Assembly (NCBI GenBank): GCA_018650445.1
Contig: JABIFX010000208.1
Coordinates: forward strand, 62,001-126,000
Source: Fidelibacterota bacterium
GTDB taxonomy: Bacteria; Fidelibacterota; UBA8477; JABMPR01
Direction of reading: 5' to 3'
DNA: 64,000 nucleotides
Shown: positions 14,572-34,309 of the stretch, one piece after another
How positions within the stretch are numbered: position 1 is the first letter of the stretch
Layout of the letters: every line of letters begins with the position of its first letter
Notes under the pieces: generated by a model
The model's input: only the letters and a program-made list of their open reading frames with translations
What the model was told of the DNA's origin: nothing
Database searches by the model: none
Translations under genes and position numbers: made by a program

Positions 14572-16521
14572 TTACGGTTTAAGACTTTCCAGGTTTTTGA
14601 ATAATTCAAGTGATTCTGGATTCGCTAGTGCTGACTGATTCTGAACCTCTTTACCCCCAATGATTTTCTTGACGGCAATCTCTACTTTTTTGCCATTAAT
14701 GGTATAGGGAATGTCAGCCGTCTCAAGAATAAGTGCCGGCACATGTCGTGGACTGCAATTTTTCCGAATAACCGTCTTTAACTTTTTCACGAGAGCTTCA
14801 TCCAGGACGCCACCTTCTGGCAACTTGACAAAAAGTATCACTCGCTCATCATCCTGCCAGGACTGACCCACAACGAGACTATCTGCTATTTCAGGCAGGT
14901 TCTCCACTACCGTATAGATTTCTGCAGTACCAATACGTACACCACCAGGATTCAGGGTCGCATCTGAACGACCATAAATGCGAACACCGCCGTGGTCATT
15001 GATCTCAATAAAGTCCCCATGACGCCAGATTCCAGGATAGTCGGCGAAGTAGGCGTTGTGGTACTTTTGGCCATCCCCATCGTTCCAGAAAAAGACCGGC
15101 ATGGATGGAAAGGCCTGGGTGCAGACCAGCTCGCCATTTTCATTGAAGACGCCTGTTCCAGAATCGTTAAAGGCCTCCACCTTCATTCCCAGACCACGAC
15201 ACTGTAATTCTCCGCGGTGGACTGGCAGGGCTGGATTGCCCAGAACAAAACAGGAAACAATATCCGTTCCGCCTGAAATTGAAGCCAGGAGGACATCCTG
15301 CTTGATGTCGCGATATACAAAATCAAAACTTTCCTCTGAGAGCGGCGACCCTGTAGATAGGACTGCCCGTAAAGCAGACAGACCAAAATCATGGCCTGGT
15401 TTAGAGCCAGCTGACTCCAGGGCATCCAGGTATTTGGCACTGGTACCAAAAACGGAGATATCAAGCTCCTCAGCCATTTTCCAGAGACCCTCTGGTCCAG
15501 GGTGAAATGGATTTCCATCATACAGCACCAGGGTTGCCCCCACCGCCAGACTACTTACCAGCCAGTTCCACATCATCCAGCCACAAGTCGTAAAATAAAA
15601 GATGGTGTCCTCGCGCTTCAAATCACAATGGAGCATCAATTCTTTCACATGCTGGACCAAGGTACCACCGGCTGAATGAACAATGGATTTTGGAAGTCCT
15701 GTTGTACCAGATGAATACATGATATAGAGGGGATGATCAAAAGGCAGCGGTGTGAAACTTACTTCGGTAGCAGGGTTATCGATGAAGTCTTCCCAGTGTA
15801 TGCTGTTGGGAACACCAGAAATATCCGGTGTCTGTGTATAACTGATAACCACCACTTTTTCCACCGAAGGTAATTCATGCAATATGTTCTGAAGTTTCTC
15901 CAGCGAATCAAAACGCTTACCCCCGTAGAAGTATCCATCCGCTGCAAAAATGATTTTTGGTTCAATCTGGGAGAAACGATCAAGAACGCCCTTGATACCA
16001 AAATCTGGCGATGAAGATGACCAGATCGCTCCCAGGCTGGACGCTGCCAACATGGCAATAACAGTTTCAGGCAGATTGGGAATAAACCCGGCCACCCGAT
16101 CACCCCTGCTAACACCGGCATCCTTCATAGCTTGAGCCGTCCTGGCAACCTGTGCATAAAGCTGGCTGTATGTCAAAGATCGTTTCACCTGGTCTTCACC
16201 ACGAAAATGAATGGCAGTACGCTCATCGCGATAACGCAGAAGATTTTCAGCATAATTCAGACGAGCACCCTGAAACCACTTGGCGCCAGGCATTTTGCTC
16301 AGATCATCCACAACCTCGTCTGCCTCCGTACTGGAAATGATCCCGCCAAACTTCCAGATCTCAGACCAGAATTCAGCGGCATGATCCAGTGACCATTGAT
16401 AAAGATCATCATAGGAGTTCAGATTCAGTCCATATATGGAATTCATATCTAGACGAAATTCAGTTATCTGCGCCTGGTTCAGCTGATCGTGACCAGGTGT
16501 CCACATCACCTTATTTGTCAT
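14572..16521 (-). CDS. aacS: Acetoacetyl-CoA synthetase (acetoacetate-CoA ligase)
   Basis: An adenylate-forming enzyme that makes acetoacetyl-CoA from acetoacetate, ATP and CoA, feeding ketone bodies into lipid or energy metabolism. The 649-residue length and the N-terminal region (FWSEIWKF, MPGAKWFQGARLNYAENLL) are characteristic of AacS as opposed to acetyl-CoA synthetase. The AMP-binding P-loop is MYSSGTTGLPKSIVHSAGG, followed by YFTTCGWMMWNWL, YGRSDATLNPGGVRIG and the C-terminal Lys in YTINGKKVE that acts in adenylation. GGGAGAGCC precedes the ATG. It heads a minus-strand group with the small membrane protein, and lies after arfB and the FAH-like gene. Confidence 0.93.
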   Translation of the reverse strand: MTNKVMWTPGHDQLNQAQITEFRLDMNSIYGLNLNSYDDLYQWSLDHAAEFWSEIWKFGGIISSTEADEVVDDLSKMPGAKWFQGARLNYAENLLRYRDERTAIHFRGEDQVKRSLTYSQLYAQVARTAQAMKDAGVSRGDRVAGFIPNLPETVIAMLAASSLGAIWSSSSPDFGIKGVLDRFSQIEPKIIFAADGYFYGGKRFDSLEKLQNILHELPSVEKVVVISYTQTPDISGVPNSIHWEDFIDNPATEVSFTPLPFDHPLYIMYSSGTTGLPKSIVHSAGGTLVQHVKELMLHCDLKREDTIFYFTTCGWMMWNWLVSSLAVGATLVLYDGNPFHPGPEGLWKMAEELDISVFGTSAKYLDALESAGSKPGHDFGLSALRAVLSTGSPLSEESFDFVYRDIKQDVLLASISGGTDIVSCFVLGNPALPVHRGELQCRGLGMKVEAFNDSGTGVFNENGELVCTQAFPSMPVFFWNDGDGQKYHNAYFADYPGIWRHGDFIEINDHGGVRIYGRSDATLNPGGVRIGTAEIYTVVENLPEIADSLVVGQSWQDDERVILFVKLPEGGVLDEALVKKLKTVIRKNCSPRHVPALILETADIPYTINGKKVEIAVKKIIGGKEVQNQSALANPESLELFKNLESLKP

Positions 16522-16533
16522 GCCTGGCTCTCC

Positions 16534-16944
16534 CTATTCATCATCTGGTTTTACTCGTGTACGAAGTTGCTTTACGCGACTGCGCTTGGTCTTGGTTTCT
16601 AGTCGTTTTTGAACAGAGGCCCGTGTCGGCCTGGTAGCTTTGCGTTTCTTGGGCTCTATTTCAGCCTTTTGAATAATTTTTTCCAGCCGCTCCATGGCAG
16701 CCTGACGGTTGGCTTCCTGATTACGGAATTGCCGGGCAGTAATGGTAATAACACCCTCTGCATTGATGCGCTGATCGCGCATTTTTAACAGGCGCTCCTT
16801 GATATGATCTGGAAGGCTGGAGTTTTGACTGTCAAAACGGAGTTGAATGGCCGTGGCCACCTTATTGACATTTTGCCCACCAGGTCCGCCTGAGCGGATG
16901 GCTTTGAGCTCAAGTTCACTTTCTGGAATTCTTAGGGGAGACAA
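16534..16944 (-). CDS. arfB: Alternative ribosome-rescue factor, ICT1/YaeJ family
   Basis: ArfB hydrolyses peptidyl-tRNA on ribosomes stalled at the end of broken messages. The GGQ motif is at residues 22-24 within RSGGPGGQNVNKVATA, and the basic C-terminal tail (from about 100, rich in Lys and Arg, ending KQLRTRVKPDDE) is the part that enters the empty mRNA channel. At 136 residues it lacks the domains of RF1/RF2. It sits 6 bases downstream of the FAH-like gene and 12 bases upstream of aacS, so these form one transcript. Confidence 0.93.
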   Translation of the reverse strand: MSPLRIPESELELKAIRSGGPGGQNVNKVATAIQLRFDSQNSSLPDHIKERLLKMRDQRINAEGVITITARQFRNQEANRQAAMERLEKIIQKAEIEPKKRKATRPTRASVQKRLETKTKRSRVKQLRTRVKPDDE

Positions 16945-16950
16945 TTTGCT

Positions 16951-17808
16951 TTACACCACCGAGGTCGCGAGTGTACCCAGAGCCTGAATCTCAATGTCAA
17001 TTTTTTGTCCCCCACTCAAAACCAGATCCCTTTTGGAGGGACTGCCAGAACAAAAAATATCACCAGCTCCCACATGACTTGACCTGGAGCATTCAAGCAT
17101 ATCAGCAAAACTAAAATTCATCTCTTTTAAGCGGGTGTCCACTTCGGTTTGACCATTAAGGCCGATTTGCATATCCATGTTGAAGCCATTTCCAATTTTA
17201 AAGGGATCAACTTGATCAGCAGTGACGAGATATGGCCCCAATGTGGTGGCCTGGCCTAAGGCTAAACCAGTTTTACCGGAAGCCTTCTCCTGGGCAGCGG
17301 TCCAATTGTTCACAATGGTGTATCCGGCAACTTCGGGGTTCTCAGAGTTTTTACTGACTGCTATGATGGCGGCGATTTCCCCCCGAGGAGCCAACCCTGC
17401 AGCTGAAAACTCCTGTCTGTGACCAAGAAGCGTCTGGGTTTGTCCAAAATCAAAAGTATCTGCGGATTGATCCGTAAAAGCTTTGAAAAACCGAATACTT
17501 GAGGGGTCAGGAATTGGAGCGAAAAACACAATATCATCTTCAGCCAATGCCACTGGTCGGGAATGGATTGAAAGACCTGAGGTATCAATATTTTGGAACG
17601 CTTCTTCCAGTTGAGTCAGCAGTGAGAACGAGTGCTGCCAGGTTTCCAGCGTCAGCTTCATGGATGAAGCCAGATTTAAAAATTCCTGAGCATTACGGTC
17701 TTCCTTCATCCACAGAGAGGCCCGCATGACGTCAACAGCCTGTCCTCCAAGAGAAATGGCCAGCCGGGGTTCCATGCGATAATCCAGTGCATAGGAGAGT
17801 AGTTTCAT
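16951..17808 (-). CDS. Fumarylacetoacetate hydrolase (FAH) family protein with altered metal ligands
   Basis: The fold is recognisable from IPDPSSIRFFKAF (99-111), PRGEIAAIIA (141-150), AGYTIVNNWTAAQ (161-173), LGQATTLGPYLVT (184-196) and a C-terminal GDIFCSGSPS segment. FAH-family enzymes hydrolyse or decarboxylate diketo acids with a divalent metal held by acidic residues. Here the E-x-E pair is R142-G-E144, and the later Asp of the usual N-D-W motif is Asn168. Catalysis by the usual mechanism is therefore doubtful. It may be a degenerate or repurposed member. It heads the run into arfB and aacS and is divergent from the isochorismatase-like gene. Confidence 0.83.
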   Translation of the reverse strand: MKLLSYALDYRMEPRLAISLGGQAVDVMRASLWMKEDRNAQEFLNLASSMKLTLETWQHSFSLLTQLEEAFQNIDTSGLSIHSRPVALAEDDIVFFAPIPDPSSIRFFKAFTDQSADTFDFGQTQTLLGHRQEFSAAGLAPRGEIAAIIAVSKNSENPEVAGYTIVNNWTAAQEKASGKTGLALGQATTLGPYLVTADQVDPFKIGNGFNMDMQIGLNGQTEVDTRLKEMNFSFADMLECSRSSHVGAGDIFCSGSPSKRDLVLSGGQKIDIEIQALGTLATSVV

Positions 17809-18000
17809 AAAAATATCCTGTCTTAAATGGTCGTAAAAGATGCACCGCAGGGCGGGAGGCTGAAAGAATTTTTAACATAATTATTTGTCTCAGCCCACTT
17901 TAAAAGACATGTTAATCCGAAGCTGCTAAAAGTATCTTTTTCGACATTTACCGCGACAAATTAACTGCGGTGAATTCAACAATTACGATGATGAGGAAGT

Positions 18001-18558
18001 ATGCATAAACCAGCCCTATTACTCATAGATGTGCAAAAAGGTTTTGATAGTCCTGCCTGGGGCCAACGGAACAATCCAGATGCGGAGTCCAACATAAAAA
18101 GACTTCTGGACGCGTGGCGCAAACATGATAGACCAATCATCCATGTTAAGCATTGTTCTGTTTCTCCAAAATCCCCGCTTCATCCAGATCAACCGGGGAA
18201 TGATTTTAAAGACGAGGCCTCCCCTCTCAGTGGCGAACCAGAATTCTCTAAAACGGTGAACAGCGCTTTTATTGGAACCGGTCTTGAAGACTATCTACGT
18301 GAGAAAGATTTGAACGCCCTGGTTATTGTCGGTCTCACTACCGATCATTGTGTATCTACCTCGACCCGAATGGCAGGTAATCTGGGTTTTGATGTGACCC
18401 TGGTTTCCGACGCCACAGCAACCTTTGAGCGAACAGATACCGATGGCGTACATATCAGTGCTGAAGAGATGCACCGGGTGAATCTGGCCAGCTTGAATGG
18501 CGAGTTTTGTGTGGTAAAATCTACTACGGAAACGCTAGAGCTGCTGGATGAGAAATAA
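18001..18558 (+). CDS. Isochorismatase-like cysteine hydrolase
   Basis: A 185-residue member of the family that includes nicotinamidase, N-carbamoylsarcosine amidase and isochorismatase. The catalytic triad is visible: Asp10 in LLLIDVQ, Lys84 in FSKTVNSAFIGT, and Cys117 in GLTTDHCVST, preceded by the cis-peptide region. Metal-binding residues of true nicotinamidases are not evident, so an amide or ester hydrolase of unknown substrate is the safe call. The next gene begins at the base after its stop, indicating an operon. Confidence 0.87.
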   Translation: MHKPALLLIDVQKGFDSPAWGQRNNPDAESNIKRLLDAWRKHDRPIIHVKHCSVSPKSPLHPDQPGNDFKDEASPLSGEPEFSKTVNSAFIGTGLEDYLREKDLNALVIVGLTTDHCVSTSTRMAGNLGFDVTLVSDATATFERTDTDGVHISAEEMHRVNLASLNGEFCVVKSTTETLELLDEK

Positions 18559-19062
18559 ATGCCTTCCAGGGATACAAAAATCAGAATTGCTGAGCCCGCA
18601 GACCTGCCCGCTCTGGTAGATATTTATAATCAGGCTGTTTCTGCACAAGCGACAGCTGCTCTGGAGCTGGTTAGGATTGAGGATAGACGACGTTGGTTTG
18701 AGGAACATGGACAGGATAAATATCCAATCCTCGTGGCTGAATACGAAAAAGCCATCTGGGGATATGTATATCTTAGCCCCTATCGTCCCGGGCGCTCAGC
18801 TTTGAGGCAAACTGCTGAAGTAAGTTATTTTGTGGATTATAATCATCACAATCAAGGGGTGGCATCAACACTTCTGGACGCTTGCATACAGATGTGTCCC
18901 AAGCTTAAAATAAAAAGGCTGTTTGCCATTCTTCTGGAAACCAACGTTTCCAGTATCGCAACATTGAAAAAGTTTGATTTTGAGCAATGGGCGCATCTCC
19001 CTGATGTGGCGGAGATAGATGGCGTAGAAGTGAGTCAGGTTTATTTTGGTCGTAAGGTTTAG
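18559..19062 (+). CDS. GNAT acetyltransferase, phosphinothricin acetyltransferase-like
   Basis: This 167-residue protein has the order typical of the Pat/YncA group: IRIAEPADLPALVDIYNQAV at the start, RRRWFEEHG, then VYLSPYRPGRSALRQTAEVSYFVD, and the acetyl-CoA loop HHNQGVASTLLDA. Relatives acetylate amino-acid-like compounds (phosphinothricin, methionine sulfone). The conserved C-terminal region is shifted slightly (VAEIDGVEVSQVYFGRKV). Its ATG directly follows the stop of the hydrolase gene. Confidence 0.86.
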   Translation: MPSRDTKIRIAEPADLPALVDIYNQAVSAQATAALELVRIEDRRRWFEEHGQDKYPILVAEYEKAIWGYVYLSPYRPGRSALRQTAEVSYFVDYNHHNQGVASTLLDACIQMCPKLKIKRLFAILLETNVSSIATLKKFDFEQWAHLPDVAEIDGVEVSQVYFGRKV

Positions 19063-19111
19063 CCGAAGAAGAAAACGAGGAAAGCGTAGAACGCGTAGAA
19101 GGAGTCATTCT

Positions 19112-19627
19112 ATGAGAAAAATTCTTGTGTTGATACTCGCTATATTTTTTGTGAATAGCTGTGTAAAAGTTCCAGAATGGGTTACCCCTGTAAAAAACTT
19201 TAAAGTGAAGCGCTATATGGGTAAGTGGTATGAGATTGCCCGGCTGGATCACAACTTTGAGATCGGCCTGAATAGCGTCAGTGCCGACTACACCTTGAGG
19301 CCAGATGGCGGAATTACTATTTCAAACAACGGCTATATGGTGAGACGGGAAGAGTGGCGATATGCTGAAGGCAGAGCCTCCTTTGTGGATGATGAAAATG
19401 TTGGTCTTCTGAAGGTATCCTTTATGCGTCCCTTCTATGGGGCCTATGTGATCTTCAAGTTGGATCCAGATTATGAGTATGCTTATGTGTGTGGGGAAGA
19501 CAGGTCCTTTCTCTGGCTGCTTTCCAGAACAGAATATGTGGACCAGGATATCATCGATGATTTTGAAACCGAAGCTAGAAAGCTTGGGTTTGACACCTCT
19601 CAACTGATTTATGTACAGCATATGTAG
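19112..19627 (+). CDS. blc: Outer-membrane lipocalin (Blc-like lipoprotein)
   Basis: Lipocalins of this type bind lipids or hydrophobic molecules at the outer membrane. The start at 19112 gives MRKILVLILAIFFVNSC, a lipoprotein signal with lipobox VNSC, and has GGAG 9 bases upstream. An in-frame upstream start would add an implausible Arg-rich stretch overlapping the previous gene. The lipocalin signature is YMGKWYEIARLDHNFE near the mature N-terminus, with YVCGEDRSFLWLLSRT further on, as in bacterial Blc. Length after processing is about 155 residues, normal for the family. Confidence 0.92.
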   Translation: MRKILVLILAIFFVNSCVKVPEWVTPVKNFKVKRYMGKWYEIARLDHNFEIGLNSVSADYTLRPDGGITISNNGYMVRREEWRYAEGRASFVDDENVGLLKVSFMRPFYGAYVIFKLDPDYEYAYVCGEDRSFLWLLSRTEYVDQDIIDDFETEARKLGFDTSQLIYVQHM

Positions 19628-19670
19628 CGCGTTTACCCCGAGGCTTTTGTGGGGATACCATGGAACATTA

Positions 19671-19702
19671 CCCAGGCGTTTGAATTGAACTCAAACCCTG
19701 GG
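19671..19702. terminator. Imperfect hairpin between lipocalin and peroxiredoxin genes
   Basis: CCCAGGCGTTTGA pairs with TCAAACCCTGGG across ATTGAAC, with a one-base bulge. No T-run follows. It could end the lipocalin transcript or be an element in the leader of the peroxiredoxin gene about 50 bases further on. Confidence 0.4.
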
Positions 19703-19752
19703 CGGATATTTGGATGCCATGTTAAAAAACTAATGATTAGGGGGAAAATGAA

Positions 19753-20268
19753 ATGACTCAAATATTAATAGCCGGCTTCATGCTTTTTGGCGTGGCGCTA
19801 GGTGCCAAGGCAAATGCAATAGTGGGTGAGGTGGCTCCAGATTTCACCATGTTTGACCAGGATGGGAAACCACACACACTCTCTGAGTATAGGGGTCAGC
19901 AGGTTGTGGTGTATTTTTACCCCAAGGACGATACCCCGGGATGTACCAAAGAAGCCTGTTCAATTCGAGATGACTATACTGTGTTTGAGAAGAATGGTAT
20001 CGAGGTCTTTGGTGTGAGTTATGACGATAGGCAAAGTCATAAAAAATTTGCTGAGAAGTATGACATTCCTTTTTTCCTGCTCAGCGATTCAGACAAATCA
20101 GTTTCTAAGGCGTATGGCGCCAGTGGTTTTTTCTTCCCATCCAGGAAAACTTATCTCATCAGTGAAGCTGGTATTCTGGTAAAGATCTATGAAAATGTAG
20201 ATGTCACCACCCATGGAGCCCAGATTTTGGAAGACTTCAAGCTCATGGCCGCCCCCGTCAAGGATTGA
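19753..20268 (+). CDS. bcp: Exported thiol peroxidase, BCP/PrxQ type
   Basis: Peroxiredoxins of the PrxQ/BCP class reduce hydroperoxides using thioredoxin-like donors. The peroxidatic Cys64 and resolving Cys69 lie in PKDDTPGCTKEACS, the classical C-x4-C arrangement. An N-terminal hydrophobic segment (ILIAGFMLFGVALGAKANA, residues 4-22) looks like a signal peptide, so the enzyme probably acts in the periplasm, unlike the usual cytoplasmic form. GGGGGAAA lies upstream of the ATG. The following gene also encodes an exported protein. Confidence 0.9.
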   Translation: MTQILIAGFMLFGVALGAKANAIVGEVAPDFTMFDQDGKPHTLSEYRGQQVVVYFYPKDDTPGCTKEACSIRDDYTVFEKNGIEVFGVSYDDRQSHKKFAEKYDIPFFLLSDSDKSVSKAYGASGFFFPSRKTYLISEAGILVKIYENVDVTTHGAQILEDFKLMAAPVKD

Positions 20269-20337
20269 GACCATATTATCATAACACCCGACTTAAGTTG
20301 AGTGCTTGATAGAAATCCAAAAAATGGAATAAAAACA

Positions 20338-20976
20338 GTGAATAAATCCGTACAAATTATATCAGTAGCCTTTATAACCCTGGTCCTGTCCCTGTCGGCT
20401 TTCGCCAGTACATCAATTGACGTGAAAAAGAGCAGTGTGGAATGGCTGGGGAAAAAGGTGACCGGAGAGCACAGCGGTTCTCTTGATCTCATAAATGGCG
20501 TGGTGACCATTGAAAAAGGTGAGATAAAAAGTGGTCGCTTTGTTCTTGATATGACCAGTATCAAAGTTTTGGACATCAAAGATGAAAAATGGAACAAAAA
20601 GTTAGAGAAACACCTCAAGGATGATGACTTTTTTGGTGTGAATTATTACCCCAAAGCCGTATTTGAGTTCAATGTGGCGGCTCCTCTAGAAAATGTAAAA
20701 GAGGGGGAACCAAACTATCATTTCAAAGGCGACTTAACCCTCAAAGGCATTACCCACGCGTTGGAATTTGATGCGTTTGTCGAGCTAAACAAAACCAGGG
20801 CACGTGCTTCTGGTCAAATCATTGTTGATAGAACCAAATACAACCTTCGCTATAAATCGAACAAGTTTTTCGATGGTCTGGGTGATAAAGCAATCTATGA
20901 TGAATTTTTTATCACCTTTAGCGTTCAGACCAGGAAGATATCCGAAGCACCAAACACAGAAAACCCCTCCAAATAG
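20338..20976 (+). CDS. Exported YceI-family protein
   Basis: YceI proteins are periplasmic lipocalin-like barrels that bind polyprenyl or other lipids. The domain is seen in SSVEWLGKKVTGEHSGSLDLINGVVTIE, IKSGRFVLDMTSI, FFGVNYYPKAVFEF, FKGDLTLKGITHAL and the C-terminal barrel strands. GTG at 20338 is chosen because GGAA lies about 8 bases before it and it begins a signal peptide (NKSVQIISVAFITLVLSLSAFA). A GTG at 20302 would add a charged extension. The precise ligand is unknown. It may be read with the peroxiredoxin gene 69 bases upstream. Confidence 0.9.
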   Translation: MNKSVQIISVAFITLVLSLSAFASTSIDVKKSSVEWLGKKVTGEHSGSLDLINGVVTIEKGEIKSGRFVLDMTSIKVLDIKDEKWNKKLEKHLKDDDFFGVNYYPKAVFEFNVAAPLENVKEGEPNYHFKGDLTLKGITHALEFDAFVELNKTRARASGQIIVDRTKYNLRYKSNKFFDGLGDKAIYDEFFITFSVQTRKISEAPNTENPSK

Positions 20977-21014
20977 ATAGCACCTTTCGCTGGCAGAATG
21001 TATCTTTGCCTCGC

Positions 21015-21036
21015 TCAATTGTGGTTGTACAATTGA
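21015..21036. promoter_or_regulatory. Perfect inverted repeat before the acyl-CoA dehydrogenase gene
   Basis: TCAATTG (21015-21021) and CAATTGA (21030-21036) are exact inverted copies 8 bases apart, centred about 53 bases before the GTG start. Size and place fit a regulator-binding site, but no regulator gene is adjacent. Confidence 0.4.
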
Positions 21037-21078
21037 AACGTTGATAAAAGTAGTTTATTATTCCAAAAGGGGGAAATC

Positions 21079-22773
21079 GTGCTACTCAATCCGACTATTT
21101 ACTCGCCAAGACACCAGGACCAGAACTTCCAGGAAATCATCGACAAAACCATCCAGTTTTTTGAAACCAAAGGACTGCAAAAAGTAAAAGATGATGACAC
21201 CAACCAGGTTTGGTATGCTGATTTTCTAGACTTTATTAAAAAGGAGAAGATATTTGCTGCCCTGCTGACTCCACCTGCTTATGGTAAGGATAATTATCGC
21301 TGGGATACCTGGCGTATCGCTCACTTCAACGAAATACTTGGCTTTTATGGTCTGGCTTACTGGTACACCTGGCAGGTTTCCATTCTTGGCCTGGGCCCCA
21401 TCTGGATGTCTGAAAACGAAGCCTTAAAACAACGGGCCGCCAGATTGCTTGAAGAGGGTGAGGTCTTTGCCTTTGGTTTATCCGAGAAAGATCATGGTGC
21501 AGATATCTACTCAACTGAAATGTCTCTAACCCCCCAAAAAGCGGGTCAATATCTGGCGAATGGATCCAAATACTATATCGGTAATGGGAACATAGCTAAA
21601 ATGGTCTCCACCTTTGGTAAGATGTCTGATTCTGGAGATTATGTTGTTTTTATTGCCAATTATCAGCATGAAAAATATAATTGTGTTCAGAATGTGGTGA
21701 ACAGTCAGAGCTATGTGGCTGAGTACACACTGGATGACTATCCAATATCCGAAGAAGATATCCTCCATAAAAATAGCGAGGCCTGGGATGCTGTCCTTAA
21801 TACGGTAAATATTGGAAAATACAACCTGGGGTGGGCTTCCATTGGGATGTGTACCCATGCTTTATATGAGGCGCTCAGCCATGCATCTCAAAGAAGGCTC
21901 TATGATATGTATGTCACCGATTTTTCCCATGTCCGGCAAATGTTTGTAGATGGTTATAGCAGGCTGGTGGCCATGAAACTGGTGGCTTTGCGAGCCGCAG
22001 ACTATATGCGGGTTGCCTCCAGTGAGGACAAAAGATATCTGCTATATAATCCTGTGGTAAAAATGAAGGTAACAACCCAGGGAGAAACTGTGATTGATCT
22101 ACTCTGGGATGTGATTGCGGCCAAGGGCTTTGAGAAGAACACCTTTTTTGAAATGGCTTCTCGCGATATTCGAGCCCTCCCCAAGCTGGAGGGTACGGTT
22201 CACGTAAATATTGCCCTGATCCTCAAGTTCATGGCGAGTTATTTCTTTCGGCCTAAAGACTATCCTGAAGTGGAGCAACAATCACAAACCACTCATGATG
22301 ATTATTTGTTTAACCAGGGGCCTACACGAGGACTGGGGAGAATACAATTTCATGATTACCGTAAGGTTTATGCCTCTGTTCAGCTTCCTAATGTTAAGAT
22401 TTTCAAACAACAGATTCGTCTACTGAAAACCCTCTTGATGCTGGCCAAACCGAATAAGGAACAGCGTAAGGATATCGACTTTCTCATGGCTCTGGGTGAG
22501 TTGTTTACTCTGGTTGTTTATGGACAGTTGATTCTTGAGAATGCCAAGATATATGGTATTAGTGATGATCTTGTCGATCAAATGTTCGACTTTTTAGTGA
22601 GAGATTTTTCCAGCCATGCCACCCAACTGTACTCAAAGACCAGCACCACCAAGGCTCAATCAAGGCTATGTCTACTGATGATTAGTAAACCAGTCGTTAA
22701 CCGGGCACGCTTTAACAGGCTTTGGTCTGATCAAATCTATCCCTTAAAAGATAGATACATCATGAAACCATAG
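21079..22773 (+). CDS. Acyl-CoA dehydrogenase family protein
   Basis: This 564-residue flavoprotein resembles acyl-CoA dehydrogenases. Support comes from FAFGLSEKDHGADIYSTEMSL near residue 135 (the FAD/substrate loop, usually LTEPxxGSD), a following beta domain with GSKYYIGNGNIA, and a helical C-terminal half with SHVRQMFVDGYSRLVAMKLVALRAADYM. The usual catalytic Glu position was not identified with certainty. The chain is longer than classical members, with about 120 extra C-terminal residues. It would oxidise an acyl-CoA or act on a modified fatty acid. It is transcribed alone, with an inverted repeat upstream. Confidence 0.82.
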   Translation: MLLNPTIYSPRHQDQNFQEIIDKTIQFFETKGLQKVKDDDTNQVWYADFLDFIKKEKIFAALLTPPAYGKDNYRWDTWRIAHFNEILGFYGLAYWYTWQVSILGLGPIWMSENEALKQRAARLLEEGEVFAFGLSEKDHGADIYSTEMSLTPQKAGQYLANGSKYYIGNGNIAKMVSTFGKMSDSGDYVVFIANYQHEKYNCVQNVVNSQSYVAEYTLDDYPISEEDILHKNSEAWDAVLNTVNIGKYNLGWASIGMCTHALYEALSHASQRRLYDMYVTDFSHVRQMFVDGYSRLVAMKLVALRAADYMRVASSEDKRYLLYNPVVKMKVTTQGETVIDLLWDVIAAKGFEKNTFFEMASRDIRALPKLEGTVHVNIALILKFMASYFFRPKDYPEVEQQSQTTHDDYLFNQGPTRGLGRIQFHDYRKVYASVQLPNVKIFKQQIRLLKTLLMLAKPNKEQRKDIDFLMALGELFTLVVYGQLILENAKIYGISDDLVDQMFDFLVRDFSSHATQLYSKTSTTKAQSRLCLLMISKPVVNRARFNRLWSDQIYPLKDRYIMKP

Positions 22774-22780
22774 CGCTTTT

Positions 22781-22816
22781 GCCAGCAACTGGTGAAGCTG
22801 GCAGGTTGTGGTTTTT
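22781..22816 (+). terminator. Possible weak terminator after the acyl-CoA dehydrogenase gene
   Basis: GCCAGC (22781-22786) pairs with GCTGGC (22797-22802) around a 10-base loop. A run of five T's follows 8 bases later. The spacing is loose for a Rho-independent terminator. Confidence 0.4.
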
Positions 22817-22906
22817 GGAAATAGTGTATCCATTCCCGGTTTATCTGGTTAATATCAGACGTTTCCACTCGTTTTAGCCTATGAAAAACTATACTGGAGG
22901 TGCGTT

Positions 22907-23674
22907 ATGGATTTAAACATAGCAGTATTGATTGATGGTGATAATATTCCATCTGCCCATGTAAAAGAGATGATGGAAGAAATTGCCAAGTATGGTAATC
23001 CCACCATCAAGCGCATTTATGGAGATTGGACCAAACCCAACCTCTCTAAATGGAAGAACCTCCTTCTGGAAAATGCCATCACGCCGATTCAGCAGTATGG
23101 CTATACCACGGGAAAAAATGCCACAGATTCCGCCATGATTATTGATGCCATGGATATCCTGTATTCAGAAAAAGTAAATGGGTTTTGCCTGGTCTCCAGT
23201 GACAGTGATTTTACCCGGCTGGCCACCCGACTCCGGGAGGCTGGCATGAAGGTCTTCGGGATTGGTGAGAAGAAAACCCCACAACCCTTTATCGTAGCAT
23301 GTGATAAATTTATCTATATCGAAATATTGAAGAATCTCGCCAAGGGAACGGAATCAGAGGCTACTGAGGACAAGCAACCAGCCCCTGAAAATGTTGACAA
23401 GATTACTCCGGGAGTGATTCGTTTAATTGCGACCACGGTTTCTGACCTGGCCGATGAGGATGGTTGGGCCTTTTTGGGGGATGTGGGAAATCTACTTCAG
23501 AAAAAACAACCCAATTTTGATTCCAGAAATTATGGCTTTCTCAAGCTGACGCCTCTCATCAAATCAACCCAGAAGTTTGAAATTGAGAGCCGTGAAAGCC
23601 CCACAGGACGATTCAAGCTTATTTATGTAAAGAACAAGGTTTCAAAAAACACAAACCGTAGAGGGAAATCATGA
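22907..23674 (+). CDS. NYN (PIN-like) nuclease domain protein with a LOTUS/OST-HTH domain
   Basis: Residues 1 to about 145 form a LabA/DUF88 NYN domain, a metal-dependent RNase fold. Acidic residues are in place in IAVLIDGDNIPS (Asp10, Asp12), NATDSAMIIDAMD and LVSSDSDFTRLATRLRE. Residues about 165-250 (TPGVIRLIATTVSDL through NFDSRNYGFLKLTPLIKS) match the OST-HTH/LOTUS domain, thought to bind RNA. The pairing is common in bacteria and suggests an RNA-processing factor. GGAGG lies before the ATG. The following lipoprotein gene overlaps its end by 4 bases. Confidence 0.92.
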   Translation: MDLNIAVLIDGDNIPSAHVKEMMEEIAKYGNPTIKRIYGDWTKPNLSKWKNLLLENAITPIQQYGYTTGKNATDSAMIIDAMDILYSEKVNGFCLVSSDSDFTRLATRLREAGMKVFGIGEKKTPQPFIVACDKFIYIEILKNLAKGTESEATEDKQPAPENVDKITPGVIRLIATTVSDLADEDGWAFLGDVGNLLQKKQPNFDSRNYGFLKLTPLIKSTQKFEIESRESPTGRFKLIYVKNKVSKNTNRRGKS

Positions 23675-24306
23675 GAGCCAAGCTAGCACTCATCCTAACA
23701 CTTATCCTCCTGGTGGGATGCAGTAAAAAATTCAAGGAATACGAGTATTTATTAGATCCTCAAATCAGTGATAAAGCACCTCAGAAAATGTTGGTGTACG
23801 AGGTGACAGGTAATCCCAATGAAGTAGGCGGGGAAGCCTTTGGTGCCTTATTCTCAACCTTTTTTAAGCTCAAGAAAGAACATGGAATGGAGATGGCGGT
23901 TCCCAGGGCTCGATGGCCCAAACCCCTGGAAACACCGAAAGAGGAATGGCTGGGAATATATGCCATGCCTGTGAGTGATTCTGTCATGGAGCTACCTGAG
24001 AAAATCCGTGAGGAATATCCTAAACTTAGGCTTGAAACCTGGGAATATGGTATGACAGCAGAAATCCTGCATATTGGCTCATATCTCTCAGAACCCCCGA
24101 CAGTTGCGAAGCTTCATGAGTTAATTGCAGAAGAGGGTTATGAAATTTCTGGACCTCATGAAGAAGAATATCTCAAGGGTCCCGGGATGTTTGGAGCAGG
24201 CAATCCTGATAAATATTATACCATTATTAGATATCCCGTGGCCAAAGTCATGCCTCTCCAGGAATCTACCCCCATATCCCCTGATGAAGATTTGCCCATG
24301 GAATAA
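23671..24306 (+). CDS. Lipoprotein with a GyrI-like small-molecule-binding domain
   Basis: The signal peptide MRAKLALILTLILLVGC ends in a lipobox. The mature part has the SHS2-type GyrI-like/SOUL-like order: EVTGNPNEVGGEAFGALFSTFF, WLGIYAMPV, YGMTAEILHIGSYLSEPPTVAKLHELIAEEGYE, then HEEEYL and YYTIIRYPV. Such domains bind small ligands. It overlaps the NYN gene by ATGA, so the two are translationally coupled, although one product is exported and the other cytoplasmic. Ligand unknown. Confidence 0.85.
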   Translation: MRAKLALILTLILLVGCSKKFKEYEYLLDPQISDKAPQKMLVYEVTGNPNEVGGEAFGALFSTFFKLKKEHGMEMAVPRARWPKPLETPKEEWLGIYAMPVSDSVMELPEKIREEYPKLRLETWEYGMTAEILHIGSYLSEPPTVAKLHELIAEEGYEISGPHEEEYLKGPGMFGAGNPDKYYTIIRYPVAKVMPLQESTPISPDEDLPME

Positions 24307-24369: not shown

Positions 24370-24843
24370 CTATCTGGAGATATAGTCCAACTTCTGGTTG
24401 CTGTCTACATACTCCTGAAAGCTGGGATCGTAGTTTTGCTTCCGCAGGTTCCAGATGTGCTGAAAAGATGAAGCCCCCATTGGCTGGGTATAATCTCTGG
24501 ACAACGCTGTCCAAACATCCTCATCCAGGAAGCCATCTCGGTTCTCTAAGAAAGCACTTTCCCATGCCCGAAACAGGTTTGTTACCAAAACGATGAGTTG
24601 AACCGATTCTGCCTCAGAAATGGAATTGTAATCCTGGTTTGCCCGCACAAAAATATCGCTGATGCTCGCATTGGCAAACATGGCCGTTGTACTCCGGTGT
24701 TCCCGGGACATTGCATGCAATGCAGACAGCTTGGCCTGCGAATTCTGAGACCGAATTTGTAATGCCAGATATATCAAAGAAATAACCACGGCAATAGCCC
24801 CGATGATTTCACCAATGGCCCCAACTGCATCCCAATCAATCAT
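24370..24843 (-). CDS. Small protein with one N-terminal membrane helix, unknown function
   Basis: The 157-residue protein begins with AVGAIGEIIGAIAVVISLIYLALQIR, a Gly-rich membrane helix, followed by a soluble helical region with conserved-looking Trp and Arg positions (LFRAWESAFLENRDGFLDEDVW). Proteins of this plan are common in marine bacteria and have no assigned role. AAGGAAT precedes the ATG. It is 57 bases downstream of the methyltransferase gene on the same strand. Confidence 0.7.
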   Translation of the reverse strand: MIDWDAVGAIGEIIGAIAVVISLIYLALQIRSQNSQAKLSALHAMSREHRSTTAMFANASISDIFVRANQDYNSISEAESVQLIVLVTNLFRAWESAFLENRDGFLDEDVWTALSRDYTQPMGASSFQHIWNLRKQNYDPSFQEYVDSNQKLDYISR

Positions 24844-24900: not shown

Positions 24901-25728
24901 TTAGCTGGCGGTTACAACGACAGCGCTGATCTTTCCGCTGATTTCCCCCTGGCCAAACCGTGTTTTGATAGAATCCGTAACCACCTCAGTCACTCTTGCA
25001 AGTCCACCGGGCTCTCGCTCTTCAATTTCGACTCTCAGCGGTGTGCCATGACAATATGCTATAACCGGTACTGTTGCGTCCTTGGCGTGACTGAAAGCAT
25101 CTTTCTGGATAATTTCACATTTGCTAAAACCAGCGGCCTCCAGATCACTTTTAATTTCATCTGGATGTCCATGTCCATGAGGCGTTCGAGCCAGGAACAG
25201 GGGTGGGTTTTCGGGGTATCGCAACGTTAAGCATTCAGTGATCTCATGAGCAAAATGATTTTCCTCAATCCTGTTCCAGACATTAAACATGAACTTCCCA
25301 CCTGGCTTCAGGACCCTTTGGATTTCCTTGTAAGCAGCAACACGATCTGGAAAAAACATGACGCTGAATTGACACAAGACCAGATCGAAAGATTCACTTT
25401 CATATGGTAATTTCATCACATCAGCCTGAGCCCAGTCAACCTCTCTACCTGCACCCAGTTTTTCAGCATGTCTAACCATGGCATCGTTTAGATCCGTGGC
25501 TGTAATCAAGCAATCATCAGGTAAAACTTTAGACAATGCTCGCGTTACAACTCCAGTCCCACAAGCCACCTCCAGAATAGATTTTGAAGGGATATTACTA
25601 GCCCTGATCGCAAGATCATGGGCATAAGTTTCAAAAATAAGTGGCACAAGAGTAGATTCGTAAAACCGGGCAACTTCCGCGGTAAAAGCTGTGTCGACTA
25701 AGGGTTTTGCTGGTTTTGAGTTACTCAC
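24901..25728 (-). CDS. SAM-dependent class I methyltransferase
   Basis: A 275-residue cytoplasmic methyltransferase of the UbiE/Methyltransf_11 type. Motif I is ILEVACGTGVVTRAL, the acidic motif II is ITATDLNDAM, the next block is WAQADVMKLPYESESFDLVLCQFSVMFF, and motif III is RVLKPGGKFMFNVWN. The start is GTG at 25728. The substrate is unknown. The gene lies in a run of unrelated short minus-strand genes that looks like accessory DNA. Confidence 0.88.
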   Translation of the reverse strand: MSNSKPAKPLVDTAFTAEVARFYESTLVPLIFETYAHDLAIRASNIPSKSILEVACGTGVVTRALSKVLPDDCLITATDLNDAMVRHAEKLGAGREVDWAQADVMKLPYESESFDLVLCQFSVMFFPDRVAAYKEIQRVLKPGGKFMFNVWNRIEENHFAHEITECLTLRYPENPPLFLARTPHGHGHPDEIKSDLEAAGFSKCEIIQKDAFSHAKDATVPVIAYCHGTPLRVEIEEREPGGLARVTEVVTDSIKTRFGQGEISGKISAVVVTAS

Positions 25729-25776: not shown

Positions 25777-25859
25777 GCCTAACGCCTCAGGCTTTCCAAT
25801 TCAGCGACCCTCATGAATCTTGATGCTGTCTGAGGTGCCGTAAATTTGTAGTGTTAAGC
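25777..25859 (-). other. attC-like imperfect palindrome after the HD-domain gene
   Basis: Read on the minus strand, the 83-base stretch opens with GCTTAAC (consensus RYYYAAC) and closes with GTTAGGC (consensus GTTRRRY), and holds an inner pair CCTCAG/CTGAGG. The TAA stop of the HD gene lies inside the first box, as is frequent in integron gene cassettes. The spacing between box and inner pair is uneven, so the match is imperfect. No integrase gene is in the window. Confidence 0.45.
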
Positions 25860-26429
25860 GTCTCGCACTGAGGTAGCTACAACCTCCACCACGGAGCAGC
25901 CAATCTCCGCATCGAGCTCAGCGAGAAACGATGTCGCCTCGCCTTGAGCACGGTGGAGCATCTCGAGAAACGAGTCATTGCCGGTATTGCGTTTTCGCAG
26001 CGAAGTGAATCTGGACTCTAGCGTGGTGGGTTGCTCACCCTCGAGAAGGAAATCGACCAGCGGTACAATCCGTTCCAGGCGGGTTCGCGGTACGAAGTCT
26101 TGAGCTGGAAGACCATACTGTGCAGCCTCGGCCGCGAGCAGACCGAAACCTATATGAGATGCGCAAACAAAGGCCGCCTCCTCGTGACAGAGGTCCATGA
26201 GCAGCTTGTAGCCTTCAACGCCATGCAGTATCGGATCGTGGGTCACGTATCTGCCAATGTCATGAAGAAGCGCCACTGACCACAGAGAGTCCACATCGAT
26301 GGCACGTTGATCCGTGAGAAGTTCTCCAACTGCCTGGGCGGCATCAGCAACAGCGTGGCAGTGTCGAGTCCATGGTAATCCCTGGCCGTATTCGACCATC
26401 AGTGTGGTGGCATTATGGCGTGAGAGCAT
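25854..26429 (-). CDS. HD-domain metal-dependent phosphohydrolase, probably acquired
   Basis: A 191-residue HD-domain protein. Metal ligands are seen in WTRHCHAVADAA (His), ALLHDIGRY (His-Asp) and the later His of CASHIGFG and Asp of PLVDFLLEGE. Such enzymes hydrolyse nucleotides or phosphate esters, and the substrate is not predictable. Two 60-base lines counted by hand (from 25921 and 26041) have 57 percent GC, higher than the neighbourhood. It is flanked on both sides by related attC-like sequences and shares the repeat TCCAATTCA on each side (25795 and 26460). Integron cassette origin is inferred. Confidence 0.83.
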   Translation of the reverse strand: MLSRHNATTLMVEYGQGLPWTRHCHAVADAAQAVGELLTDQRAIDVDSLWSVALLHDIGRYVTHDPILHGVEGYKLLMDLCHEEAAFVCASHIGFGLLAAEAAQYGLPAQDFVPRTRLERIVPLVDFLLEGEQPTTLESRFTSLRKRNTGNDSFLEMLHRAQGEATSFLAELDAEIGCSVVEVVATSVRDA

Positions 26430-26442
26430 CGTCGCAGTTACC

Positions 26443-26510
26443 CCTAAAGCTTTTTGCTGTCCAATTCAAAGGCTCCCTGTGAATCACGACGATGCCAGGG
26501 TGCATTGAAC
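26443..26510 (-). other. Second attC-like sequence, upstream of the HD-domain gene
   Basis: This stretch aligns with the site at 25777-25859: on the minus strand both run GATTCA, GGG, TGAATTGGA, AGC and then TTAGG in the same order. Its end boxes (GTTCAAT and TTTAGGG) match RYYYAAC and GTTRRRY less well. It overlaps the end of the saccharopine dehydrogenase-like gene. Confidence 0.4.
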
Positions 26511-27614
26511 CCCACGTGCTTCTAAATATTGCTCAACGCGTTTCCAACAGCCTTCCTCGGCGCCTACGAACTCAGGAGGACTGATCCCTGTTCGAGAATA
26601 ATGACCTTCAAGCACCAATCGGGTAACTGCTGTACAGGTATACCCCGTTGTTTTTGCCATTGAAAGCGTATCTGTGGTGGGATTGTATTCGTCACACATG
26701 TCGTAGGTGTATGTCACGGGCTTCCCGTCTTCCACACCAGAAATTATCAACCGCATGACAGTAAGATCAGCCACACCGGGCTCGTATTTCCACAGTGGGG
26801 AAAGCAAGGCTGCCGTCATATCTATGGGTCGCACAGCGGCGCCCTCTAACTGGATAGGGGTCATGTTGAGAAATCCGGTATCCTTGAAAATGCGCATGAA
26901 TTCCACGTGTCCGGGATAGCGCAGGGTCTTCTCAAACATATCCGGAATATCCATGGTGGAGATCAGCGTTCTGAGTCCATCAGAGTTGAGACAGGCCAGG
27001 GTGCCCACACCATCGATATCAATTGTTTTGGTTTCAGAGAGCATGGGTTTGACGAGAACTTTTCCCTGTTCAACCAGCCGGCCTGAGCCAGTGTACTCCT
27101 CCAGAACCTCGAGTACGGGAAAGGGAGACAGGTATTCTAAGGGTGTATCCCTCGACTTTGGAATACCACCAACGTAGCATTCATAGCGGTCAACTTTCAT
27201 TTTGCGGGTGTGATATCCCAGAATGATATTGGCCATACCTGGTACCACGCCGCAGTCCACCACAGCGGTGACGCCATGGGCCTGGGCCAGTTTATCCAGC
27301 CCGAAAGGGTCTTCCATGAAATACGAGATATCGACGATATTTTTACCGGCGCGAATGACCGTTTCGAGCATGCTGTAGCCTATGGAGTAGGGCACTGAAC
27401 CGATGACGATATCCGCATCAGCAATGGCACGAGTGACACCTTCCTGTGTGGAAAGGTCTGCGACACGGATCTGGATGGGATGTTCTTTTGCCAGATCTTC
27501 CAGGACCTGCTGGTTGACATCTACCGAGATGACCTCAAGGTCAGAATCCTGGCAAAGATCTATAGCCATGTGTCTTCCCACGGCTCCACAGCCCAGAATG
27601 ACGATTCTGCTCAA
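26484..27614 (-). CDS. Saccharopine dehydrogenase-family oxidoreductase (lysine 6-dehydrogenase-like)
   Basis: A 376-residue NAD(P)-dependent enzyme with the Rossmann start IVILGCGAVGRHMAIDL, an acidic strand end VISVDVN, and the GSVPYSIGYSMLETVIRAGKNIVDISYF block of the Sacchrp_dh_NADP family. CGVVPGMANIILGY and YVGGIPKS match the catalytic-domain region of lysine 6-dehydrogenase and related enzymes. The start is TTG at 27614 (SRIVIL follows). The end overlaps the attC-like stretch. The substrate (a lysine-derived or other amino compound) is inferred from family only. Confidence 0.85.
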   Translation of the reverse strand: MSRIVILGCGAVGRHMAIDLCQDSDLEVISVDVNQQVLEDLAKEHPIQIRVADLSTQEGVTRAIADADIVIGSVPYSIGYSMLETVIRAGKNIVDISYFMEDPFGLDKLAQAHGVTAVVDCGVVPGMANIILGYHTRKMKVDRYECYVGGIPKSRDTPLEYLSPFPVLEVLEEYTGSGRLVEQGKVLVKPMLSETKTIDIDGVGTLACLNSDGLRTLISTMDIPDMFEKTLRYPGHVEFMRIFKDTGFLNMTPIQLEGAAVRPIDMTAALLSPLWKYEPGVADLTVMRLIISGVEDGKPVTYTYDMCDEYNPTTDTLSMAKTTGYTCTAVTRLVLEGHYSRTGISPPEFVGAEEGCWKRVEQYLEARGVQCTLASS

Positions 27615-27639
27615 ATTGGTATCACTTTCTTTTTATGGC

Positions 27640-27835
27640 TGCATCCCGCCCACGGCAGTGACCGCCAGGCGGGACAAGTTTACCAGAACGTACCCTGAAC
27701 TTGTCGAAGTGCAAAGCTCACCGTCTTCCTGAGGCTCTCGAAGGAGGCGGGTGAAGCGTAGACTAGTGCTCGTCATCCTGAGGTCGACGTAGTCGAGAAC
27801 TCGAAGGACGACGTGCTGTCGAAGGGTCAATCTGG
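27640..27835. repeat. Cluster of short palindromic repeats
   Basis: The interval holds a CCCGCC-to-GGCGGG inverted pair (about 27646-27673), an AACTTGTCGAAG unit, TCTTCCTGAGG with CTCTCGAAGGA, and TCATCCTGAGG with CTCGAAGGACGACGTGCT. These are parts of the same units seen near recG and the GIY-YIG gene. No coding frame is convincing. It separates two minus-strand genes. Confidence 0.7.
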
Positions 27836-27858
27836 TTTTTACTAACCTGGTTACCCGA

Positions 27859-31108: not shown

Positions 31109-33154
31109 TTAGCCTAAGAACGATTTAATTTGGCTTTCGACTCTTCTAGCCGATAGTCTGAATACTGCGAATTCCTCATCCATAATATCTTTTGCATGAG
31201 CATCAATTCGGAAAGTATTGATTGTCTGCATATCTGAGAGGAATTGATCCTTGTTTGGTCCAAATATATTCTTAAAACACTCCCAATTTTTAGAAAGAAT
31301 TTTAGACAAATCAGAAAAAAGTAGCCCCGATTTATTGCCACTCATAATTTCTCTTAAACTATAGCTAGCATTTTTTGTTTTTCTTGGGTTGCCCAATAAA
31401 GACAATACACCTGCTTTGGCAGTTGTTTCACCAACCTGAGCCAGTAACTGCATATTACATAATTTTCGTAGCTTTTCTTCTAAATCATTTCTACGCTCAG
31501 ATATTTCTGTTCTTTTTTGCTCAATCGTGAGATTTAGCCGTTTGTATTTTTCTTTTGAGCGCAAATATTTTTTGATAACCTCTATCCTAAAATCGAATCT
31601 TTGCTCAACCTCCTGCAAAACGCCATAACCAAGAAGATGGTTTGTGTATAAAGGACTTAACTCAGCAAATTCCTGAAAAGTTTTTAGATCCCCTCTAGAT
31701 ATCATTCGTAACATTTCGTATTCATCATTAAAATATTCTCGTAAGACACTTAGTATCATTTCAAGAAATTGACTATAATCACGGATAAAGGTTTCAACTG
31801 CCTTTGAATATCTTGTTTTATCAACTCTTACGGGACGTTCTACAGGTGCTGTTTTGTGAATTATGCTACATATGTGACGCATTAAGTATGGGTGCCCTCC
31901 ACAGTCGTCTGTCAATCGGCTGTAGATAATTTCATCAAATTTTAACCCCATTATTCTCCCCAACTTTCTCACCATTTCTCTAGTCTGGGGTACATCAAAT
32001 CCGGGTATATACTCTATTGGAACCTGAGCAAATAGTGGATTATCCACCCTTCCAATTGTCGGTAGCTCCACACATAGAGGATTTGTTCCTACCAACAGAT
32101 AGGAAAACAGATTTGTCGAGGATTGGAACAATGAGCGAATTGTTTGCCAGAATAGTACAAAATCTTGCCCATCTTTCCAGTGTTTGGTAGGTGATACAGT
32201 CGGAGTAATGTTCTCGACTTCATCGAAAATTATCATGATTTTCTTACTACCCAACTTGTGGGATATTTTAGTTAAGTATTTTTCAAAGAGGCTAGGAGCA
32301 TCCTTAGCCGTATACGAACTCATATCACCTATTCGCACTTTTGAATTATTTTGCTTGTTGATTGCATCTAGAACGAAATGTAGGGCAAAATGCCACCTGA
32401 GTTGATGAAACGCCGGAGTCTGGCAGTCAACAAATGCAGAAACACCTGATATCTTCAATAGTCCGCGCTGGACTCCAAAAATCACAGATGTTTTACCCGT
32501 TTTACGAAGACCAAAAAGACCAGATACTTGATTTGATCGATGTCGATTTACTAATGAATGAACTAGGTCAGTTCTTCCAAAGAAATATAAGTCCTTTCTC
32601 AGTGGACTTTCCGAAGCGAAAAGGTCCCTGGCATAGAAATGCTCGATAAATCTATTTCGAAAGAAATATGGACCTTTCTTTGTCTCGCAAAGTTCTTGAT
32701 AGGTAAATGGTACTACAATTTGAGCTTCTTGATCATTTTTAAGTAATTCTCGAAGCTTAATCACAATGCCCTCGTCCTTGCTAACAAGCATACTGCAAAT
32801 TCGTTCTATTCGAAGAGTTTGATGCAAATCTGCAGCAGCGGACAGGGCAGTTAATGAGCGTGGCTCAAATACCTCATAAGGGCTAAATATTAAAATGATT
32901 TCCCTATCCAAGTTGAACATTTCTTTGAATAGATCCGTTGGTTTCACTAAAACATAGCGATAGCGGCTGGTAGGACCGAGCTGGATTTCTTTCCCACCAT
33001 TGGTAACATACCAATCACGTCCAACCCGTTTGATTATCTTCTGTTCCTCGGGAGTGAAGTGAGTCATAACAAGCTGCGGATTTACACCAGGGTCTACCCT
33101 ACCTTGATTTCCATTTTCATCCATCATTTGATTCCTGTCTTCATTATTTTGCAT
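31109..33154 (-). CDS. STAND-type P-loop NTPase with C-terminal HEPN-like region
   Basis: A 681-residue protein. Residues 85-155 form an alpha/beta region of unknown type, followed by FIEHFYARDLFASESPLRKD and YFFGR, a link seen in conflict-type NTPases. The ATPase has Walker A GLRKTGKTS (215-223) and Walker B IMIIFDEVEN (Asp311, Glu312). A winged-helix-like stretch and a coiled coil (about 535-575) follow. The last 40 residues hold FRIDAHAKDI with Arg649-x3-His653, like the RNase motif of HEPN domains, though one residue shorter than Rx4-6H. A sensor-ATPase that releases an RNase toxin is inferred. GC is low (40 and 32 percent in the 60-base lines at 31141 and 31501). Confidence 0.78.
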   Translation of the reverse strand: MQNNEDRNQMMDENGNQGRVDPGVNPQLVMTHFTPEEQKIIKRVGRDWYVTNGGKEIQLGPTSRYRYVLVKPTDLFKEMFNLDREIILIFSPYEVFEPRSLTALSAAADLHQTLRIERICSMLVSKDEGIVIKLRELLKNDQEAQIVVPFTYQELCETKKGPYFFRNRFIEHFYARDLFASESPLRKDLYFFGRTDLVHSLVNRHRSNQVSGLFGLRKTGKTSVIFGVQRGLLKISGVSAFVDCQTPAFHQLRWHFALHFVLDAINKQNNSKVRIGDMSSYTAKDAPSLFEKYLTKISHKLGSKKIMIIFDEVENITPTVSPTKHWKDGQDFVLFWQTIRSLFQSSTNLFSYLLVGTNPLCVELPTIGRVDNPLFAQVPIEYIPGFDVPQTREMVRKLGRIMGLKFDEIIYSRLTDDCGGHPYLMRHICSIIHKTAPVERPVRVDKTRYSKAVETFIRDYSQFLEMILSVLREYFNDEYEMLRMISRGDLKTFQEFAELSPLYTNHLLGYGVLQEVEQRFDFRIEVIKKYLRSKEKYKRLNLTIEQKRTEISERRNDLEEKLRKLCNMQLLAQVGETTAKAGVLSLLGNPRKTKNASYSLREIMSGNKSGLLFSDLSKILSKNWECFKNIFGPNKDQFLSDMQTINTFRIDAHAKDIMDEEFAVFRLSARRVESQIKSFLG

Positions 33155-33933: not shown

Positions 33934-34051
33934 GATGTCTCTGCCTTATATGAATAACGTTTTCTATGTTTATTCCAACCTCGGAAACACAGTAATCTAG
34001 CGTTTTAGCTTATTTTTTACAAGGACGTATCCCCCTTGGAGTTCTCGTCTG

Positions 34052-34197
34052 TTGTCCTTCGCACATCGCACTTCGACAAGCTCAGTGTGACACCTCAGGA
34101 TGACGCGCTCCAGTCTACGCTCTGCCCGCCTCCTTCGAGACTGCCCTTCGGGCACCTCAGGAAGACGTGCTCAGTGTGACACCCCAGGAAGACGAAC
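34052..34197. repeat. Palindromic repeat cluster upstream of recG
   Basis: The cluster contains CTTCGACAAGCTCAGTGTGA, CACCTCAGGATGACG, CCTTCGAGACTGCCC, then CTTCGGGCACCTCAGGAAGA and CGTGCTCAGTGTGACACC. The middle part equals the inner half of repeat B at 36616-36740 and 38538-38606. CTGCCCTTCGGGCA is a small hairpin by itself. The remaining bases of the 33934-34309 gap show no gene. Confidence 0.8.
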
Positions 34198-34309
34198 CTT
34201 AGGCAAATTTCAAGCCTGCCCATCGAAGCTACTTTGCCGTTGAAAAAAATTTTAAAAAGTTAGCGTAGATGGGTTTCGAAAGACCTGCCTCCGCTTAAAT
34301 TGATTTTCT

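Follow-up and report, generated by a model that had tools for sequence, protein, structure and literature searches.

The locus raises the question of whether a GC-rich gene with integron-like boxes, lying where no integrase is nearby, is a gene cassette stranded outside an integron. The gene lies on the minus strand of the window, by which we mean the whole 64,000-nucleotide stretch of contig JABIFX010000208.1 analysed here. Read along that strand, it is the second of four genes.

26484-27614, minus strand: resident saccharopine-dehydrogenase-like gene (Pfam PF16653)
25854-26429, minus strand: HD-domain phosphohydrolase-like gene (HD gene), 191 aa, presumed cassette gene
24901-25728, minus strand: methyltransferase gene, 3' of the half-site described below, possible second cassette
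24370-24843, minus strand: 157-aa gene, in the same non-syntenic block as the HD and methyltransferase genes

The gene product matches Pfam HD with 30.3 bits (cut-off 22), as expected from the original prediction of an HD domain, and reaches 80 bits against TIGR00295, under the cut-off of 172. Its description as GC-rich also holds (about 55% G+C vs 43-47% in the left neighbours). The HD gene is accessory, because only 2 of 245 phylum genomes contain it and the other copy is at a different position in its genome. The homologue in genome G001 is 55% identical and adjoins a ribosomal protein L21-like gene, with no attC seen behind it. No relatives were found in GTDB contigs, viral contigs or plasmids, and the protein has no close relative by sequence in the PDB.

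We compared the gene order with that of relatives. Orthologs of the dehydrogenase in G009 and G011 are 81-82% identical and adjoin a nitroreductase-like gene. Synteny with G011 is kept on both sides of the block (window 16300-24244 and 26456-27630), where a single 306-aa gene replaces the 157-aa, methyltransferase and HD genes; on the 3' side of the dehydrogenase, G009 has different neighbours. The methyltransferase gene had no match at E 1e-20 among 19 other genomes. The syntenic contig of G011 also carries a decayed attC (L041 2363-2441) about 3 kb from the dehydrogenase ortholog.

Three short stretches flank the HD gene.

26446-26487, minus strand: upstream attC-like stretch, native dehydrogenase 3' tail plus about 25 bases, TGAATTGGACAGCAAAAAGCTTTAGG
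25853-25859, minus strand: R''-like box GCTTAAC, containing the TAA stop of the HD gene
25777-25795, minus strand: putative L'-R' half of a genus-type attC, AAAGCCTGAGGCGTTAGGC, 23.9 bits on the genus attC PWM

Behind the gene, both boxes are present as originally described: the stop codon lies inside GCTTAAC, and GTTAGGC closes an 83-base site (25859-25777) at 25777 on the minus strand. GCTTAAC pairs with the R' box at 7 of 7 positions when G-T is allowed, and the AACAA of the genus is AACAC here. Taken alone, the outer pair is no evidence for an integron, since such pairs occur 5 times in the window vs 4.8 expected by chance. The downstream stretch folds no better than shuffled sequences (z 0.18 and -0.42), and an Rfam scan over the whole window gave no match.

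The right half of the site can be judged separately. We built a PWM from 41 genus attC sites, taking the 19 bases at the end of each, and on it the final 19 bases of the downstream site score 23.9 bits vs a median of 23.0 for true sites; some members have low scores once excluded from the profile, which is therefore slightly diluted, to the disadvantage of the candidate. The chance expectation for such a right half is 0.0008, or about 0.001, per window (exact tail probability 6e-9 per position) at a length that was one among several tried, lengths from 16 to 20 giving at most 0.003 per window. No right half scored this high in 1.5 Mb of simulated sequence. When the 3.9-Mb assembly was searched with AAGCCTAAGGCGTTAGGC at up to 3 mismatches, three matches were obtained: the HD site (1 mismatch), C57 (2) and C258 (3). 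The HD half-site is the only one with fewer than 2 mismatches and, differing from the genus consensus at 1 of 18 bases, the best in the assembly, while the other two fall inside attC sites that the models detect. Across the surveyed loci there were 57 other strong right-half matches, each of them from a locus with attC sites or remnants. The downstream site has an R' core of the form GTTRRRY preceded by an attC-type L' arm. Used as a DNA query against its own genome, the site has no good second copy, and a weak match in C57 turned out to be an attC. Its identification as an attI was rejected, because the sequences that follow IntI in the genus do not resemble it.

The left half is missing. No L'' arm follows the R''-like box (-10 bits on the left-half PWM), and the best L''/L' stem scores 5.3 and is out of place, vs 7.5-13.9 in accepted sites. 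We applied two attC covariance models, R1 and R2. In a 1.1-kb search R1 scored the HD site at 6.3 bits (E 0.53), aligning the outer boxes alone; over the whole window it gave nothing below E 0.39, and its best match (61113) lies elsewhere. R2, a broader model spanning class 1 and genus attC sites, was built because R1 misses an 87-base attC in L076 at E 10. R2 finds that site, which was among its training rows, and recovers held-out class 1 attC sites (in L050, L052 and L053), but does not list the HD site. With neither a left half nor L''/L' pairing, the downstream site is, as judged from its sequence, half an attC and presumably a dead half-site.

Upstream of the gene (26510-26430), a second attC-like site had been predicted from blocks common to both flanks (GATTCA, GGG, TGAATTGGA, AGC and TTAGG). 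The shared blocks are present, and the flanks align with a score of 20 vs 8.4 +/- 1.6 for shuffles (0 of 2000 as good), but the upstream copy is mostly native gene tail and does not count as a separate site. In GATTCAC..GGG we recognise the dehydrogenase stop codon and 3' tail (GTGATTCACAGGG here, ATGATTCACAAGGGG in G011 and GTGATTTACTGGGGG in G009). Because these tails are alike and neither relative has the HD gene there, the first half of the supposed site is attributed to the dehydrogenase. The stretch has no GTT box, scores 0.5 bits on the 19-base PWM and 7.1 bits on a 13-base PWM (R13; p ~0.04 over the region), and was found by neither covariance model. No clear R' box and no evident GTT mark the 5' junction of the HD gene, so that of the two recombination points expected of a cassette the 3' one has support and the 5' one is not clear. 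The upstream stretch is not an attC, and of the two predicted flanking sites only the downstream one fits the genus attC, in its right half. Two short similarities were set aside. The 10-base CTTTAGGGGT is common to the upstream stretch and to L076, where it lies in the IntI stop region, and was taken as a coincidence; the 14-base GGACAGCAAAAAGC, shared with an attC at L076 10836-10922, is suggestive, of low complexity and not decisive.

The genus is rich in chromosomal integrons. A full-length integron integrase (TIGR02249) was found in 11 of 18 genus mates, and R1 detected attC sites in 18 of 19 genus genomes, including the genome of the window, whose 7 sites lie on other contigs. As predicted, no integrase occurs in the window, and its contig has no tyrosine recombinase match; the search that the prediction proposed for an integrase elsewhere in the genome also gave none above the TIGR02249 cut-off in the assembly (87% complete). 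In several genus mates intI lies close to a contig end, and arrays may therefore be cut off by assembly. In L076 and L080 cassettes follow intI, and their attC sites are about 85-130 bases long. For nine genus sites a fold was obtained in which R'' pairs with R' and L'' with L' and which has extrahelical bases, as in attC sites in general (PMC2727003). One chromosomal integron (L076 9240-17366) has intI facing its array; among its cassettes are an acetyltransferase-like gene and a pair of small genes resembling a toxin-antitoxin module.

A further candidate remnant was found 5 kb from the HD half-site on the same strand.

31109-33154, minus strand: 681-aa gene with cassette-like bounds, GTTAGATGCAAA at the start and TTTGCATCTAAC after the stop codon
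31037-31101, minus strand: second putative attC remnant, an R''-L'' half interrupted by a hairpin (about 34 bases), from left-half scans

Just behind the gene, ATCTAACAAAGG (E 0.035 per window) and CTTAGAGCTGACACAAAA (E 0.009) occur in order, 35 bases apart. ATCTAACAAAGG is followed by the hairpin and then by CTTAGAGCTGACACAAAAACCGAAG; a complete attC in L126 matches the latter with its L'' arm and the bases next to it. R1 made no call on this remnant (31101-31037). GTTAGATGCAAA and TTTGCATCTAAC form an exact 12-base inverted match at the two ends of the 681-aa gene, as expected for the two ends of a circularised cassette. The gene is absent from the other genus genomes, and neighbouring DUF6326 and HNH genes have distant relatives on attC-bearing contigs (L125 and L121).

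Taken together, the HD gene is most likely an old captured cassette that is predicted to be no longer mobile. We assign a probability of about 0.58 to its being what is left of an integron cassette, in a degraded deposit that lacks an integrase. On the best reading, the deposit occupies the minus strand from about 24.3 to 34 kb and is interrupted by the resident dehydrogenase gene. That the HD gene belongs to the half-site is somewhat favoured by position, because the two share a strand, the stop codon lies in the pairing box and the span is of normal length. The entry of the gene as a cassette and the order of events are inferred. An IntI of the genus type, in an ancestor or acting in trans, would have inserted promoterless cassettes; a later rearrangement would have removed the R''-L'' arm of the HD cassette attC, leaving the L'-R' arm (25795-25777). 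With no L'' arm, the strand would form no hairpin recognised by IntI, and the HD gene would be fixed in place.

Several findings argue against a cassette origin. Neutral decay should erode the two halves equally, yet the L'' arm is gone, and both covariance models miss the site although R2 finds held-out class 1 attC sites. The G001 homologue lacks an attC, the assembly has no IntI above the cut-off, and the 5' R' box is not clear. The main rival is a junction formed by deletion: the right half would be that of a true attC, and the HD gene, acquired by ordinary horizontal transfer, would have been joined to another cassette's remnant by deletion or recombination. We regard this as possible but clearly the less probable course. 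An intact L'-R' half beside a lost L'' arm suggests a junction and not point decay, the G001 relative does not adjoin an attC, and GCTTAAC could be a chance box (we estimate ~0.15 for a box in range pairing 7/7). A coincidence would then be needed for the stop codon to fall inside a box pairing 7/7 with R' at a span of 83 bases, in the range of true sites.

It is unlikely that the boxes and the 19-base match are all accidents in the intergenic tail of an ordinary gene. Box pairs at chance frequency and covariance scores at background would be expected in that case, but the right half is expected only ~0.001 times per window and its single mismatch in 18 bases is the best in 3.9 Mb. Less probable still is a duplication of the dehydrogenase tail during insertion of the HD gene by homologous or illegitimate recombination; the flanks do align over 62 columns into the dehydrogenase stop region, but at low identity, and their strongest part (AAGCCTGAGGCGTTAGGC) is attC-specific and absent from the dehydrogenase tail. 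The proposal of a stranded cassette therefore survives in part: a genus-type right half and integrons in the genus speak for it, whereas the lost L'' arm and the background covariance scores speak against it. The original prediction had named two observations that would count against it together. Both flanks do score as background in R1 and R2; relatives carrying the HD gene in the same place without boundary sequences were not found.

We compared the putative cassette remnant with known arrangements. The combination of intI and attI next to an array, as in a complete integron, was not found at the locus. In a secondary-site insertion the attC stays complete except for its last six bases. The HD gene resembles such an insertion as a lone cassette outside an integron, but the HD site has lost half of its attC and has no evident GTT at the 5' junction; an example of a lone cassette at a secondary site is aadB in RSF1010, cited in PMC10127599. 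The arrays of the genus (L076, L080, L123 and L127) share with the HD site the L'-R' sequence, the gene orientation and the accessory nature of the genes, but their sites are complete in both halves, with L'' pairing to L' and with extrahelical bases present. CALINs are defined in IntegronFinder as clusters of attC sites lacking an integron integrase (PMC9024848). Like a CALIN, the window combines accessory genes with sequences derived from attC on a single strand, and no intI is close by. A CALIN call needs at least 2 attC sites by covariance model, however, and the two remnants in the window are too damaged for calling.

The novelty of the locus is limited because CALINs and degraded integrons are already known (PMC9024848, PMC9668308). 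The locus shows how a cassette may lose its mobility and end as a chromosomal gene like any other. There are few records of this step, because damaged sites escape attC covariance models. Half-site profiles made for one genus can recover relics of cassettes that a general model overlooks. We give little credence to a broader idea, that cassettes repeatedly become fixed as solo L'-R' halves; removal of L'' by recombination would then lock useful cassettes beside resident genes, and many domesticated cassettes of the genus would be invisible to attC finders.

Further variation was observed among attC sites of the genus. Box-less copies lacking R''/R' occur in G012 (L130 283-382 and 1271-1366), matching the model from about position 11 to 112, and a similar match at L131 1233-1336 has its R'' side split by a hairpin. 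Hairpins of about 15-35 bases, sometimes in tandem, separate the R'' box from the L'' arm of attC sites in several genus genomes, in either orientation (window 31101-31055, minus strand; L041 1616-1690; L090 2976-3080; L125 2560-2640; L131 1205-1250). They resemble small hairpins, mobile or expanding, situated where the attC has its extrahelical bases. Short REP-like palindromes (CTTCGACAAGTTCAGG and CACTGAGCTTGTCGAAG) are clustered between genes at window 27640-27840 and 34030-34230.
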